Assembly: GCA_021203325.1 (NCBI GenBank)
Contig: JAJQBL010000020.1
Span: 5,771-52,589 of the forward strand
Length of the DNA: 46,819 bases
Direction: 5' to 3'
DNA from: Clostridiales bacterium
GTDB lineage: Bacteria > Bacillota > Clostridia > Oscillospirales > Oscillospiraceae
Shown: piece by piece, positions 38,644-46,411 of the stretch
How the letters are laid out: every line of letters begins with the position of its first letter
How positions within the stretch are numbered: the first letter of the stretch is position 1
The notes under the pieces: generated by a model
Told to the model about the DNA's origin: nothing
Databases searched by the model: none
The model's input: only the letters and a program-made list of their open reading frames with translations
Position numbers and translations under genes: made by a program

Positions 38644-39474
38644 TTACAGAATAAAGTCGAAGGCGTCTCCGGACTGAACGAAGTGCACCGGCACATCCCC
38701 CACCAGCCGGGGCAGGTACCGCACCATGTACTTCATGCCGATTTCCTCAAAGTTGAAGTGGCCGATGTTGTAGACGATTTTGGGGTGGCCCAGCTGGCTG
38801 GCGTCCCGCATATAGGCGCACACCGTCCAGTCAATGACCTCAAGGGGGATGATGGCGTCAATGTCCTCCCGGGCTACCTTCAGCAGCTTGGCGTCGGCCT
38901 GGGCGTCCCGGTCAATGATATGCTCCCACAGGAACACCTTGGACACCCTGGCGTGGGGGTCGCCGGAGATGCGGATGCCATTCAGGTTCAGCTTTTCCTT
39001 CAGGTACAGCCCCAGCTCGGTGGCGTCCGTCTCCGGCAGCCGGAACAGCAGGGGCTTCTTTTCCGAGCCGATCAGGTAGTCCTCTCAGCCCAGCTCCTTC
39101 ATAATGCCGTAGTAGATGCCGTCCAGCGGCGGGTCGATGGGGCTGCCGCCGTGGATGTGGTCATGGTCCCGCCAGACCACGATGCCCCCGTCCTCCAGCA
39201 GCTGCCGCTTCTCCTGAAAGATCTGACTGTCGGCCAGATAGTCGGTGGTGTCCTCATGGCTCCAAAACAGCGGCTCGTGGGCAATGATCAGGTTGGCCCC
39301 CAGCTCCGCCGCCCGGCGGATGACGTTCACAGAGGCAAAGCAGGTCACCACAATGCCGGTACACTCCTGCTCCGGGTCGCCGTACTTCACCACATCGGTG
39401 GTGGGGAAGGCGGGGTCGTCCTTCATGGGCGGGTGGTAGGCGATGACCTTGGCGATGACTTCACTGATTTTCAT
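38644..39474 (-). pseudogene. Nif3-like dinuclear metal centre protein interrupted by an in-frame TGA
   Basis: Read through, the frame gives 276 residues of the Nif3/YqfO family: MKISEVIAKVIAYHPP.., LGANLIIAHEPLFWSHED, RDHDHIHGG, and a second half with KVFLWEHIIDRDAQ and VYNIGHFNFEE. At 39085-39087 a TGA sits where Trp is expected (KELG-stop-EDYLIGS; TGG in most relatives, as I recall). Both halves keep the same frame with no indel. The ATG at 39474 follows AAGGAG. Either a nonsense mutation, a sequencing error, or readthrough; no Sec insertion element was identified. The half proteins (39085-39474 and 38644-38946) would each lack part of the metal site. Confidence 0.8.
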
Positions 39475-39626
39475 AACAGACTGCTCCTTGTCTTTCCCGG
39501 CTGCGGCCCGGTGGCCGCTCCGCCGGTTTATATTTTCCATTATAGCGCAAAAAGGGAACGGCGTCAAGCGGTGGCGGGGGCCGGCGGCACAACGGGCGTC
39601 TTTCCAACTGTGTACACACTTCCTCC

Positions 39627-42175: not shown

Positions 42176-42523
42176 TTAAAGTATCACAAAGGTGACGCCG
42201 TTGTTGTACCGCTCCAAATCCCGGTCGCTGCGGAGGGCGTCGCAGCGGCGGAGGGCCTGCCGGGTCTCCTCCTCGAAGATGGAGAATTTCTCTCCGGGGA
42301 CGAAGCCGGCAATCTGTCCCCGGGCCTTCCGGGCGGACAGCTCCCGCCGGACGGCCACCCGAATCTTCCCGCCCGTTCCGGAGGAGCCGTAGCCGTGAAT
42401 CAGCTTCACCGCGGCGTATCCCAGCCGTTTGCTGGTAATCAGCTCGCTGTCCAGCCGCCGGAGGGCCTGCTCCACCGTGGGCAGACCCTGTTCCAAATTC
42501 ACCTGACGGAGCTGTCCTGCCAT
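42176..42523 (-). CDS. Stand-alone Smr domain protein
   Basis: 115 residues. The Smr (small MutS-related) fold is seen in VNLEQGLPTVEQALRRLDSELI..YAAVKLIHGYGSSGTGGKIRVAVRREL; the HGYGSGxGxIR-type loop is the conserved core of Smr nucleases. Smr domains nick DNA or cleave RNA at stalled ribosomes. Here there is no MutS2 part. The ATG at 42523 follows AAGGGA by 6 bases. It stands just upstream of tRNA-Ser on the other strand. Confidence 0.88.
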   Translation of the reverse strand: MAGQLRQVNLEQGLPTVEQALRRLDSELITSKRLGYAAVKLIHGYGSSGTGGKIRVAVRRELSARKARGQIAGFVPGEKFSIFEEETRQALRRCDALRSDRDLERYNNGVTFVIL

Positions 42524-42962: not shown

Positions 42963-43526
42963 TCAATTCCCGGTGAGATACCGCCCCATCAGCTTCTCAT
43001 AGACCCGCGCCAGCATCCACGGCTCGCGGACCTGTTCCCGCACCTGGGCCGGGGTCAGCCAGCGGACGCCGGTGTTCTCCCCGGGGCAGGGGCGCAGGGG
43101 CGTCCCCTCCTCCGCCTCCACCAGCCAGGTGAGGTTGAAATGCAAATGACAGGGGACGTACTGCCCCCGCTTCTCGTGGCCCGCCACAAAGAGCTGCTCC
43201 AGGGAGCAGGGCCGGGGGGACACCAGCCGCCCGCCGGTGACGCCGGTCTCCTCCCCCAGTTCCCGCAGGGCCACGGCGGCGAGATCGTCCTCCCCGTCGG
43301 CGTGGCCCCCGATCCACGACCAGGACTGATACAGGTTGTGGTAGACCATCAGGGTTTTCGTCCGCCGGGGGTTCACCACCCACACCGAGGCGGTGAAGTG
43401 GCCCGCCGGATTCTCCCGCAGCAGGCAGTCCGGGTTCCGGATGGCAAAGGCCAGCATAGAGGCCCTGTCCCGTTCCTCCTGCTCATTCCAGGGGCGATAC
43501 CCTTCTATCAGCTCCAAAAGTGTCAT
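42963..43526 (-). CDS. Nudix hydrolase
   Basis: 187 residues. The Nudix box is complete: GGHADGEDDLAAVALRELGEETGV, fitting GX5EX7REUXEEXGU with its metal-binding glutamates. Flanking sequence (TASVWVVNPRRTKTLMVYHNLYQSWSWIGGH) resembles proteins that hydrolyse nucleoside diphosphate derivatives; the substrate is unknown. It starts 6 bases after the GTPase-nuclease gene, whose end contains its GGGAGG site, so both are one operon. Confidence 0.92.
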   Translation of the reverse strand: MTLLELIEGYRPWNEQEERDRASMLAFAIRNPDCLLRENPAGHFTASVWVVNPRRTKTLMVYHNLYQSWSWIGGHADGEDDLAAVALRELGEETGVTGGRLVSPRPCSLEQLFVAGHEKRGQYVPCHLHFNLTWLVEAEEGTPLRPCPGENTGVRWLTPAQVREQVREPWMLARVYEKLMGRYLTGN

Positions 43527-43532
43527 GTTTCG

Positions 43533-46160
43533 TCAGCCTCCCAACGCCTGGGCGATCTCCCGCTCCACCTCCTGCACCTCGTCCCACAGGGTACGGGCGG
43601 AGATGCGGAGGGAGCCGTGGCCCAGAACGATGACCTGCTCCAGCCCGTCCGACGTGGCCACCCGCACCCGATGGTGTTTACTCAGGTCTAAGGTGGCCTT
43701 TTCGATATACATATCCGCCGTCTCCGCCTCTTTCGTGTAGACCACATGGATATTCCGATACCGCTCCACCGAGCCGACGCCCCCCTTCACCTTGTAGGCG
43801 TCAAAGACCACGATGACCTCGCACCGGCGCATCCCCCGGTAGTTGCAGAGGATGTCCAGCAGCCGGTCCCGGGCGGCGGACAAATCTTCCCTGGCCAGGG
43901 CCTTCAGCTCGTCCCAGGCGAAGATGATGTTGTAGCCGTCCACCAGCAGGTACTCCGTCTGGAGAGGCTGCTCTTTCAGCTTCACCGGTTTGTTTTGGCG
44001 CTCCTCCGTGCGGATGCGGGCCTGGGACTCAAAAGCCCGCCGCCGCTTCACCGGGCCATAGGTCTGGGCGAAGATGGCCTCCGGCTCTTTATCCATCACC
44101 TGGGCGGCCCGGAACCGTCTGGCCCGCTCCTCTATGGGGGCGGCCTCCTCCTCCAGCTCCGGCTGCTCCGGCTGCCAGGGGGGCAGGTGCATATACTCCG
44201 GCACCTGCCGCCAGTTCACTGTGAAGCCCGCGCCGTGGGCGCAGAACACGGAGTCCGGCGTGTTGGCAAGGTCGGCCTCCGGCTGGTATCCCAACCCCGC
44301 GATGACCTCCTCCGGGTTGTGACAGGGCTGATACCCAGACACGGTGGCGCTCAGCCGTCCCCGGCCTCCGGTGTAGGCGGCCAGCTCCGTCTGATACCCC
44401 CGCAGGGTGGACACCGGCCCGCTGCCGGTGAGCACCGCCGTTTCCTGCCCCGTCTCCTGAATCTGGCAGGAACCGAAGCGCTGCTCCAAGTCGGTTATGG
44501 CCCGGCCCACCTGCTCCAGCGGCAGCTCCAGCCGGAGGTCATACCAGGGCTCCAGCAGCAGGCTCTCCGCCTGCATCAGCCCCTGGTGGACGGCCCGATA
44601 AGTGGCCTGGCGGAAGTCCCCGCCCTCGGTGTGCTTCTCGTGGGCCCGGCCGGTGAGCAGGGTGATTCTCATGTCTGTGATGGGGGAGCCGGTCAGCACC
44701 CCCAGATGCTCCTTCTCCTCCAGATGGGTCAGAATCAGCCGCTGCCAGTTCCGGTCCAGCACGTCGCCGCTGCAGGCTGTGCCGAACACCAGACCGCTGC
44801 CCCGGGTCCCCGGCTCCAGCAGGAGGTGCACCTCCGCATAGTGCCGCAAAGGCTCAAAGTGGCCCACCCCTTCCACCGGGGCGGTGACGGTCTCCCGATA
44901 GAGGATGCTCCCTTCCCGGAACCGCACCGCCAGCCCGAACCGGTCGGCGATCAGCCGCTGCAGGACCTCCAGCTGCACCTCGCCCATGAGCTGCATATGG
45001 ATCTCCTGAAGCTGCTCCTTCCAGACGATGTGGAGCTGGGGGTCCTCCTCCTCCAGCTCCCGCAGCTTTTGAAGGGCCTCCGGGACGTTGCACCCCTGGG
45101 GCAGCTCCACCCGGTAGGTCAGCACCGGGGTCAGGGCGGGGGGCAGGCTGCGGGCTCCGCTGCCCAGCCCCTGGCCGATGAAGGTGTGGGTCAGGCCGGT
45201 GACGGCGCAGACCGTCCCCGCCGAGGCGGCCTCCGCCTGCCGGAACTTCTGACCGGAGTAGCGGCGAATCTGGTCAACCTTCTCCGCCCAGACCTCCTCC
45301 TCCGGCACCGGGCGGCCGTTCCGGCCCAGGGTGCCCCGGTTGGTCAGGAGCTGTTTGGGCCGCAGGCACCCGCCGGTGACCTTCAGCCAGGTCAGCCGGT
45401 TCCCCCGGCCGTCCCGGGAGATTTTGTAAACCTCCGCCCCAAATTCCGGGGGCCAGGCGGTTGGCCGGGTGTACCGGGTCAGCCCCTCCAGCAGCTCCGC
45501 CACGCCGTCCAGCCGCAGCGCCGCGCCGAAGTAGCAGGGGAACACCTTCCGTTGGGCCACGGCCTGGGCGACAGCCTCATCCGTCAGGCCCCCCGTCTCC
45601 AGATACTGCTCCAAAAGGGCCTCGTCCGCCGTGGCGACGTCCTCCTGCCACGCCTGGACGGGGGCGGAGCAGTCACAGCAGCCGTCGTCCAGCCGGCGTT
45701 TCAGCTCCGCCAGCAGCGCCTGCCTGTCGCTGCCCGGCAGGTCCATCTTGTTGACAAAGAGGAAGGTGGGGATGCCCCGCTGTTTCAGCAGCCGCCACAG
45801 GGTCTCCGTATGGCTCTGCACCCCGTCGGTGCCGCTGATGACCAGAATGGCGTAGTCCAGCACCTGGAGGGTGCGCTCCATCTCGGCGGAGAAGTCCACA
45901 TGGCCCGGCGTGTCCAGCAGCGTCACCTCCAGCCCCTCCAGGGGCAAAATCGCCTGCTTGGAGAAGATGGTGATGCCCCGCTCCCGCTCCTGGGCGTCGG
46001 TATCCAGAAAGGCGTCGCCGTGGTCCACCCGGCCCAGCTTTTTCAGGGCCCCGCCCGCGTACAGCATGGCCTCGGTCAGGGTGGTCTTGCCCGCGTCCAC
46101 ATGGGCCAGCAGGCCGACGCACAGGGGAGTTGTTTTGTTTTCTGTTGTCTGCCCGCCCAT
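43533..46160 (-). CDS. TetM/EF-G-like translational GTPase fused to a Rae1/YacP-like NYN nuclease
   Basis: 875 residues. The N-terminal part is an EF-G/TetM-type GTPase: P-loop AHVDAGKTT (19-27), RGITI, DTPGHVDF, NKMD, then domains II-V to about residue 640. After a Glu/Pro-rich and then basic linker, residues about 715-875 form a YacP-type NYN domain: YLLVDGYNIIFAWDELK, VIVVFDAYKVKGG, TKEAETADMYIEKA and VATSDGLEQ, with the acidic residues expected for a PIN-like active site. Rae1 (YacP) of Bacillus cleaves mRNA in the ribosomal A site, so the fusion suggests delivery of a nuclease to ribosomes by a TetM-like factor. The ATG at 46160 follows GGGAGG by 7; the ATG at 46193 lies in the promoter. 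Tetracycline resistance is possible but not shown. Confidence 0.88.
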   Translation of the reverse strand: MGGQTTENKTTPLCVGLLAHVDAGKTTLTEAMLYAGGALKKLGRVDHGDAFLDTDAQERERGITIFSKQAILPLEGLEVTLLDTPGHVDFSAEMERTLQVLDYAILVISGTDGVQSHTETLWRLLKQRGIPTFLFVNKMDLPGSDRQALLAELKRRLDDGCCDCSAPVQAWQEDVATADEALLEQYLETGGLTDEAVAQAVAQRKVFPCYFGAALRLDGVAELLEGLTRYTRPTAWPPEFGAEVYKISRDGRGNRLTWLKVTGGCLRPKQLLTNRGTLGRNGRPVPEEEVWAEKVDQIRRYSGQKFRQAEAASAGTVCAVTGLTHTFIGQGLGSGARSLPPALTPVLTYRVELPQGCNVPEALQKLRELEEEDPQLHIVWKEQLQEIHMQLMGEVQLEVLQRLIADRFGLAVRFREGSILYRETVTAPVEGVGHFEPLRHYAEVHLLLEPGTRGSGLVFGTACSGDVLDRNWQRLILTHLEEKEHLGVLTGSPITDMRITLLTGRAHEKHTEGGDFRQATYRAVHQGLMQAESLLLEPWYDLRLELPLEQVGRAITDLEQRFGSCQIQETGQETAVLTGSGPVSTLRGYQTELAAYTGGRGRLSATVSGYQPCHNPEEVIAGLGYQPEADLANTPDSVFCAHGAGFTVNWRQVPEYMHLPPWQPEQPELEEEAAPIEERARRFRAAQVMDKEPEAIFAQTYGPVKRRRAFESQARIRTEERQNKPVKLKEQPLQTEYLLVDGYNIIFAWDELKALAREDLSAARDRLLDILCNYRGMRRCEVIVVFDAYKVKGGVGSVERYRNIHVVYTKEAETADMYIEKATLDLSKHHRVRVATSDGLEQVIVLGHGSLRISARTLWDEVQEVEREIAQALGG

Positions 46161-46187
46161 GAAACGGCCTCCCTGATCATTTACTGG

Positions 46188-46216
46188 GTTCATTTTACCA
46201 CAGCGGGCGGGAATAG
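46188..46216 (-). promoter_or_regulatory. Promoter of the GTPase-NYN and Nudix operon
   Basis: Minus strand extended -10 TGG-TAAAAT (46188-46193) with a weak TCGACT -35 seventeen bases upstream. The leader is short, ending in GGGAGG. Confidence 0.45.
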
Positions 46217-46232
46217 TCGAGGAGAGATTTTT

Positions 46233-46362
46233 GGGGGCAATGTCATCAACTTGAGGGGGTTGGGTTCCTTAGATAACGTTGGCTATCGAGGCTTTGCCCG
46301 GCCTTCGCCGTCAAGCGGCATTTCCGCTGCGCTCCCTACCCTTGCCAGGGAAGCGGGGGCCT
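46233..46362 (+). repeat. Intergenic repeat family R, copy 5 (truncated) with 29-bp insert
   Basis: The left terminus GGGGGCAATGTCATCAACTT and the following TTCCTTAGATAAC..GCTATCGAGGCTTTGCCCGG match copy 2. A 29-bp element (46310-46338) is inserted in the loop of the CTTCCC/GGGAAG-type hairpin. After GCGGGGGCCT only a short GACTGCCGC-like piece remains and the rest of the family is missing. It lies just upstream of the GTPase-NYN promoter. Confidence 0.65.
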
Positions 46363-46411
46363 GACTGCCGCGCTATCACTTTTAGCATATCCTCCTCGGT
46401 CAGTGAGCCTT

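Follow-up and report, generated by a model that had tools for sequence, protein, structure and literature searches.

The window analysed here is a stretch of 46,819 nucleotides from a Clostridiales bacterium of the gut (contig JAJQBL010000020.1, positions 5,771 to 52,589 of the forward strand), and on its minus strand a single open frame joins a translational GTPase to a C-terminal NYN_YacP domain of the kind found in the nuclease Rae1. From its first ATG the frame (43533-46193) encodes 886 amino acids (aa). This far ATG is overlapped by a predicted -10 box, and the hexamer GGGAGG (46173-46168), part of a Shine-Dalgarno sequence AGGGAGG (46168..46174) 7 bases upstream of an ATG at 46160, is kept in all 7 aligned sequences (the window and six close relatives). 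Thus the likely start is 46160, the one chosen in an earlier sequence-only reading of this DNA, which gives a coding sequence of 43533..46160 and a protein of 875 aa that begins at residue 12. Residue numbers throughout are counted from M1 at the upstream ATG, and the features described below lie on the minus strand unless stated otherwise.

The N-terminal part has the G1-G4 motifs, the DTPGH motif and the domains III-V of the EF-G/EF2 superfamily. Its GTPase (G) domain (residues 26-242, 45468..46118) was recognized by these motifs and by a match to Pfam GTP_EFTU (2e-49). The following domain II-like stretch (residues ~243-345, 45159..45467) was placed via alignment to EF-G; it had no Pfam match of its own and contains a short insertion that is missing from most relatives. 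Domain III (residues 356-425, 44919..45128) scored just under the EFG_III cut-off (26.2 bits against 27; 8.6e-6), and domains IV (residues 429-542, 44568..44909) and V (residues 546-626, 44316..44558) matched EFG_IV (2.2e-19) and EFG_C (5.4e-16). Alignment also revealed a C-terminal extension, SVFCAHGAGF...W...YMH (residues 627-672, 44178..44315), from which a linker (residues 673-745, 43959..44177) leads to the NYN_YacP (Rae1) nuclease domain (residues 749-882, 43548..43949; Pfam 3e-48, 164.4 bits against a cut-off of 24.6). Taken as the distance between DGYN and the close of the extension motif, the linker is 83-144 aa long (median 92) in 99 of the 101 full-length fusions. The motif L..IF..TYG was rejected as a mark of the family, its strict pattern occurring in 38 of 101 linkers. 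In the Protein Data Bank, the NYN part matched only B. subtilis YacP/Rae1 at E values up to 1 (5mq8 and 5mq9; 1.7e-25), and the GTPase part matched EF-G and Tet proteins. A scan of bacterial genomes found relatives of the fusion at 302 loci in other genomes; the best 80 of these, which match over nearly their full length, were kept and form with the window a set of 81. Because the architecture recurs in this way, the joining of the two parts in one frame, as the sequence-only reading had described it, is neither a chance occurrence nor an assembly join.

Both active sites of the fusion are kept. The GTPase motifs AHVDAGKTT, RGIT, DTPGH and NKMD and the NYN motifs DGYN, VFDA, ETAD and ATSD are present and conserved; across the 81 aligned proteins the tip of domain IV, the NYN acids and the GTPase motifs show little or no variation, and in 41 aligned fusions the GTPase motifs, DTPGH among them, are invariant. 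Five acids, D752, D798, D827, E831 and D849, align with D7, D53, D81, E85 and D104 of Rae1. We take these to be the catalytic ones, and their conservation is 1.00 (to two decimals) across 122 fused copies and 30 free ones, of which Rae1 is one, which bears out the acidic residues on which the earlier nuclease assignment had been based. The ratio of nonsynonymous to synonymous substitution rates (dN/dS) between the window and six close relatives is 0.02-0.05 for the NYN domain, 0.18-0.27 for the GTPase and 0.16-0.21 for the linker, and in the pair L022/L024 the corresponding values are 0.03, 0.08 and 0.12. The nuclease is the most constrained part of the protein among close relatives.

Published accounts characterize Rae1 as an endonuclease acting on messenger RNA (mRNA) in the A site of the ribosome (PMC12320835, PMC8266666, PMC6613710), and as a small stand-alone protein co-transcribed with yacO (rlmB) (PMC6613710). 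The B. subtilis protein has the NYN_YacP domain and all the catalytic acids in common with the fusion. In contrast to this stand-alone form, the NYN domain here is the C-terminal part of a much larger protein, found at another genomic place, and it ends without the last ~30 residues of Rae1. The window's own genome has the fusion on contig C1 and rlmB on contig C160, and a check for a free YacP, which the sequence-only reading had proposed, found no NYN_YacP gene in this genome other than the one within the fusion. Free copies elsewhere tend to keep to rlmB: the annotated copy of C. difficile lies in the order rlmB, NYN, sigH, tuf, and of six further free copies examined by eye, four (L200, L201, L204 and L211) adjoin an rlmB-like gene, L213 is one gene away from one, and L210, from genome G529, is elsewhere. 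This proximity would suit a role in stable-RNA processing, with the GTPase as an assembly factor and the nuclease trimming ribosomal or transfer RNA, and the available part of Atkinson 2015 (PMC4342817) cites a proposed role of the domain in the maturation of both. The articles on Rae1 cited above describe an A-site mRNA endonuclease instead, and we consider a processing role very unlikely.

The distribution of the two forms of the gene was examined in genome samples of the order, the class and the phylum, which were evenly drawn and whose members are related to one another. In the order sample NYN_YacP was found in 101 of 295 genomes, nearly all in frames of at least 830 aa; the short frames lie at contig ends (G107, G150, G193, G205 and G215) or are split (G275), and no free NYN_YacP gene was seen in these 295 genomes. 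In the class sample NYN_YacP was found in 249 of 391 genomes, and the frames listed fall into two sets, of ~170-220 aa or ~850-950 aa, plus a dozen of odd length. For a subset of 291 class genomes a profile built from just the GTPase part was run as well, with at most four candidates scored per genome, and fused and free classes were assigned among the matches listed and by checks of individual genomes. The fusion is present in 106 of these 291 genomes (a few as contig-end fragments, e.g. G422, G430, G469, G502 and G511, the last with its two parts at the ends of two contigs, or split, as in G344), NYN_YacP without the fusion in 84, and neither in 101. None has the fusion and a free copy together. 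Checks of 39 genomes, chiefly of the 84, found free genes of 160-217 aa in 38; the match in G533 is below the cut-off, so that free copies above the cut-off are present in 83 genomes rather than 84. Apparent cases of both forms in G427, G489 and G528 were rejected because the second matches are below the cut-off (21 bits). Genome G424 has two fused copies, on two contigs (L182 and L192).

The 106 fusions are spread over 25 families, and families with both states, given as fused and free, are f46 (6, 2), f47 (2, 4), f51 (4, 1) and f52 (8, 1). Zero overlap would be very unlikely if the two forms were independent, but the genomes are related and the independent switches few. Outside the class, the fusion was found in 12 of 289 genomes of the phylum sample. 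The mutual exclusion of the two forms is near-complete, and the fusion stands in for free Rae1 in many Clostridia; its gene looks like an old housekeeping gene.

The architecture itself has been noted before. One sentence in the accessible part of Atkinson 2015 (PMC4342817) reports that ten Clostridiales Tet proteins acquired a YacP-like NYN domain, and a resistance mechanism is suggested there for these Tet-NYN proteins. They have the same two parts, a GTPase and a YacP-like NYN domain, and also occur in Clostridia; we assume that the ten species carry the present family, the match being one of description only. The part of that article available to us contains nothing on the replacement of free Rae1, on the distinctness from Tet, on the unfused sister group described below or on the pattern of constraint. 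Beyond it we found no further account of the fusion in the open-licence literature, outside which the main Rae1 papers lie. The sequence-only reading had known of no experimental description of this architecture, and none was found, although the architecture as such had already been noted.

We spell out the resistance mechanism suggested by Atkinson 2015 (PMC4342817) as one in which a Tet-type factor would dislodge a drug from the A site, with the RNase activity as part of the mechanism. The best NCBIfam match of the fusion is indeed the Tet model NF012153, and one fused copy, from Agathobacter rectalis (L218), is named a TetM/TetW/TetO/TetS protein by NCBI. However, the score of 387.4 bits is half the curated cut-off of 775, which two Tet(M/W) comparators (L170 and L171) exceed at 852.6 bits. 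With the GTPase profile the relation is reversed, whole fusions in the class scoring 622-1164 bits (nearly all above 800) and the two Tet(M/W) comparators 246. A third group, of unfused Clostridia GTPases in 17 genomes, scores 690-778 bits where whole. In a GTPase tree of 55 rows (25 fused, 15 unfused and 15 others), built by a quick method with only Shimodaira-Hasegawa-like approximate likelihood ratio (SH-aLRT) supports and subject to warnings about long branches and composition, the fused GTPases group as one clade (100). With the unfused ones they make up a wider clade (100), from which Tet(M/W) and other Tet-like proteins are separate.

The loop at the tip of domain IV, GRAHEKHTEGGDFRQATYRA (residues 515-534, 44592..44651), is a signature of this combined clade. 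The Tet(M/W) sequence at this place is YSPVSTPADF, which presumably contains Pro-509 of TetM, and in the fusion it is replaced by HEKHTEGGDF. Variants of H..HT.GGDF are found in the 7 fused and 8 unfused rows shown, the divergent L165 being the exception. Pro-509 of TetM is described as reaching the drug site (PMC8161019). Variants of the extension motif SVFC.HGAGF are likewise common to fused and unfused rows and absent from the Tet(M/W) and EF-G rows compared. The fusion is thus like Tet(M/W/O/S) in being an EF-G-like translational GTPase with a GTPase part of similar length, and differs in its domain IV tip, its extra C-terminal extension, its clade and its score; membership of the Tet family was rejected on score, loop and tree. 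In the accessible part of Atkinson 2015 (PMC4342817) such proteins are classed as Tet and tied to resistance, whereas the present GTPase neither groups with Tet in the tree nor reaches the Tet cut-off. In the window's own genome we also noted a second EF-G-like protein (L018) with the altered G motifs GHSGSGKT and SKCD, alongside a canonical EF-G.

The leader and the location of the gene also bear on a resistance role. Tet(M)-type leaders contain an attenuator. Here a promoter-like site, TCGACT-17-TAAAAT with a TG before the -10 box (46192..46220), lies ~30 bases ahead of the start codon; two such sites were found in the scanned region against 0.7 expected, a weak signal alone, and TCGACT with a -10 of TAAAAT or TAGAAT is kept in 6 of the 7 aligned sequences, L020 being the exception. 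The leader therefore might be short and without room for such an attenuator, a weak argument against resistance. Nor is the fusion obviously mobile. Of 24 plasmid records with an NYN match, 2 among the 20 listed carry a named fusion (Monoglobus and Agathobacter), and in nine one-contig genomes the fusion is on that single contig, so that it is chiefly chromosomal. Taken with the separate clade and the different loop, these points make antibiotic protection improbable, and because of the low Tet score, the clade and the loop, the label 'TetM' should be dropped. The kinship with TetM drawn in the sequence-only reading is not supported, since the GTPase forms a separate clade and is without the drug-displacing loop, and for the same reasons the role which that reading proposed on drug-blocked ribosomes has no support from the sequence.

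Several records met in this search are of separate interest. The Agathobacter rectalis fusion (L218, 961-4426) is on a 252-kb plasmid, where it adjoins a BrnT-type toxin/CopG-family antitoxin pair. C. difficile records of 96-150 kb filed as plasmids (L219, H5-H16) match the NYN domain; H5 contains the normally chromosomal cysS-rlmB-sigH-tuf-rplK region and is possibly mislabelled. Two unannotated faecal 'phage' records, H21 and H22, have NYN domains 68% and 56% identical to that of the window, and are possibly bacterial DNA.

The unfused GTPases (645-700 aa where whole), for which we found no existing name, carry the domain IV signature of the fusion and a variant form of the SVFC.HGAGF extension, and they stop at this extension without an NYN domain, where the fusion continues. 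None of the 291 class genomes has the fusion and this unfused sister together (3e-4 if the two were independent). We also built a tree of the NYN domains, from a chosen set of 27 of the 122 fused rows and 29 free rows. In this tree a single clade (100/99) holds 26 of the 27 fused rows and one free row (L122, from G529), and the remaining fused row, L166, sits among the free copies at the end of a very long branch. L165 is a long-branch row as well, and the broken genes L167 and L181 were left out of both trees; in L167 (G508) the fused gene is broken by an in-frame stop and is readable only as separate pieces. Because the NYN and GTPase trees each give one main clade, the family most likely goes back to a single, old fusion, which likely took place early in Clostridia. 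The free NYN gene of G529 (L210, 4787-5308) lies away from rlmB and groups with the fused domains. Since the unfused GTPase of the same genome groups with the unfused sisters, this gene looks like a secondary release from a fusion.

What the joining of the two parts does is a matter of interpretation. According to PMC8161019, Tet-type factors occupy the same A-site binding position as EF-G and appear to use GTP hydrolysis for their release; from its sequence, the GTPase of the fusion likely has an EF-G-like mode of binding as well. Because Rae1 acts in the A site and Tet-type factors bind there, the most likely effect of the fusion is to deliver a Rae1-type nuclease to paused ribosomes, and we give a somewhat better than even chance to the reading that it is a housekeeping, ribosome-directed endoribonuclease of the Rae1 type carried by its own translational GTPase. 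Of the self-delivering, ribosome-dependent mRNA nuclease for stalled or drug-blocked ribosomes put forward by the sequence-only reading, the ribosome-directed nuclease stands as the best interpretation and the part about drug-blocked ribosomes is not supported by the sequence. The GTPase part would bind paused ribosomes at the factor site, with domain IV extending to the decoding region. As GTP is hydrolysed, or later, the nuclease on its tether would cleave the mRNA within the A site or beside it, and the cut complex could be cleared by transfer-messenger RNA (tmRNA), which is present in the window's own genome. After an early, single fusion the fused gene would have come to occupy the place of free Rae1. 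Ribosome binding, mRNA cleavage, GTP coupling and the order of these events are what we infer. A GTP-gated form of this nuclease, in which EF-G-like entry clears or tests the A site before the tethered Rae1 domain cleaves, is a tentative proposal that we hold at well under even odds.

A different explanation is that the two parts are tethered for dosage or localization, a normal Rae1 that reaches the A site by itself being attached to a separate general translation factor, so that both stay on the ribosome with no coupling of cleavage to GTP. B. subtilis Rae1 is not known to need such a GTPase. The genes for the unfused GTPase and free YacP each exist without the other, the linker is long, close relatives show much stronger constraint on the NYN domain than on the GTPase, and the free NYN of G529 groups with fused ones, all of which would suit such co-tethering. 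On the other hand, the fusion has been retained in 25 sampled families after an apparently single origin, with both active sites intact. We regard co-tethering as unlikely, though as the likeliest of the alternatives considered here.

Several observations also weigh against a ribosome-directed nuclease that has replaced Rae1. The exclusion of the two forms depends on few events, as only four families mix the states, and G611, which is among the 391 class genomes but outside the 291, is a true exception with both fused and free forms. Neither form was found in 101 of the 291 genomes, so the function is not essential. Of the 17 genomes with the unfused sister GTPase, 7 have no YacP of any kind, and a tested association between this GTPase and free YacP is not significant (10/17 against 74/168, p = 0.31); the sister must therefore have a job of its own. 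The GTPase of the fusion is under weaker constraint than the nuclease. Domain IV and the nuclease together are probably too big for one A site and would act in turn or on neighbouring ribosomes. Finally, the NYN domain of the window's lineage ends 21 aa after S865, compared with 48-52 aa in 29 of 30 free rows (the 30th being Rae1, cut at residue 137), and the missing end includes the place of R166, a residue whose change to proline was found among loss-of-function suppressors in the available part of PMC6613710. Tails of the fused NYN domains vary, being at most 30 aa in 35 of 122 rows and at least 40 aa in 87.

The surroundings of the gene in the window add little that is shared by the family. 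A Nudix hydrolase gene (42963..43526; NUDIX 1.1e-12) lies 6 bases downstream of the fusion, and from this gap the two are probably co-transcribed here, in keeping with the sequence-only reading. The pairing is lineage-specific, the Nudix neighbour being confined to the window and L020-L024, 6 of the 81 loci, and a conserved Nudix partner was rejected. No gene was found to be conserved beside the fusion in the 81 loci, the commonest other cluster occurring in 13, although neighbours are undercounted because many loci are cut by contig ends. Close to the fusion, a small Smr-domain-like protein is encoded at 42176-42523 (25.6 bits against a cut-off of 25.7); it is absent from the recurrent clusters of neighbours that were listed. 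Smr domains also occur in SmrB, a nuclease of collided ribosomes. Further along are two neighbouring frames, at 38644-38946 and 39085-39567, the second of which matches NIF3 (31.8 bits) and the first of which has no match; the two possibly represent a single gene split by a frameshift, whether natural or introduced in assembly. An antisense frame of 872 aa (43746-46364, plus strand), on which no domain search was made, was taken as an artefact of G+C-rich codons.

According to the part of PMC12320835 available to us, the catalogue of endonucleases cleaving mRNA on the ribosome is not yet complete. A fusion of an A-site nuclease to a translational GTPase in about one third of the class genomes sampled hints at how such a nuclease might be recruited to the ribosome, and makes this recruitment testable through two separable active sites. 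At least one gene of the family is labelled a tetracycline-resistance protein in databases although the family lies in sequence outside Tet. If the GTP-gated form proposed above is true, the fusion would be a main A-site quality-control nuclease of many gut Clostridia, this nuclease would be partly hidden in databases under a tetracycline-resistance name, and its unfused sister would represent a translation factor that awaits study.

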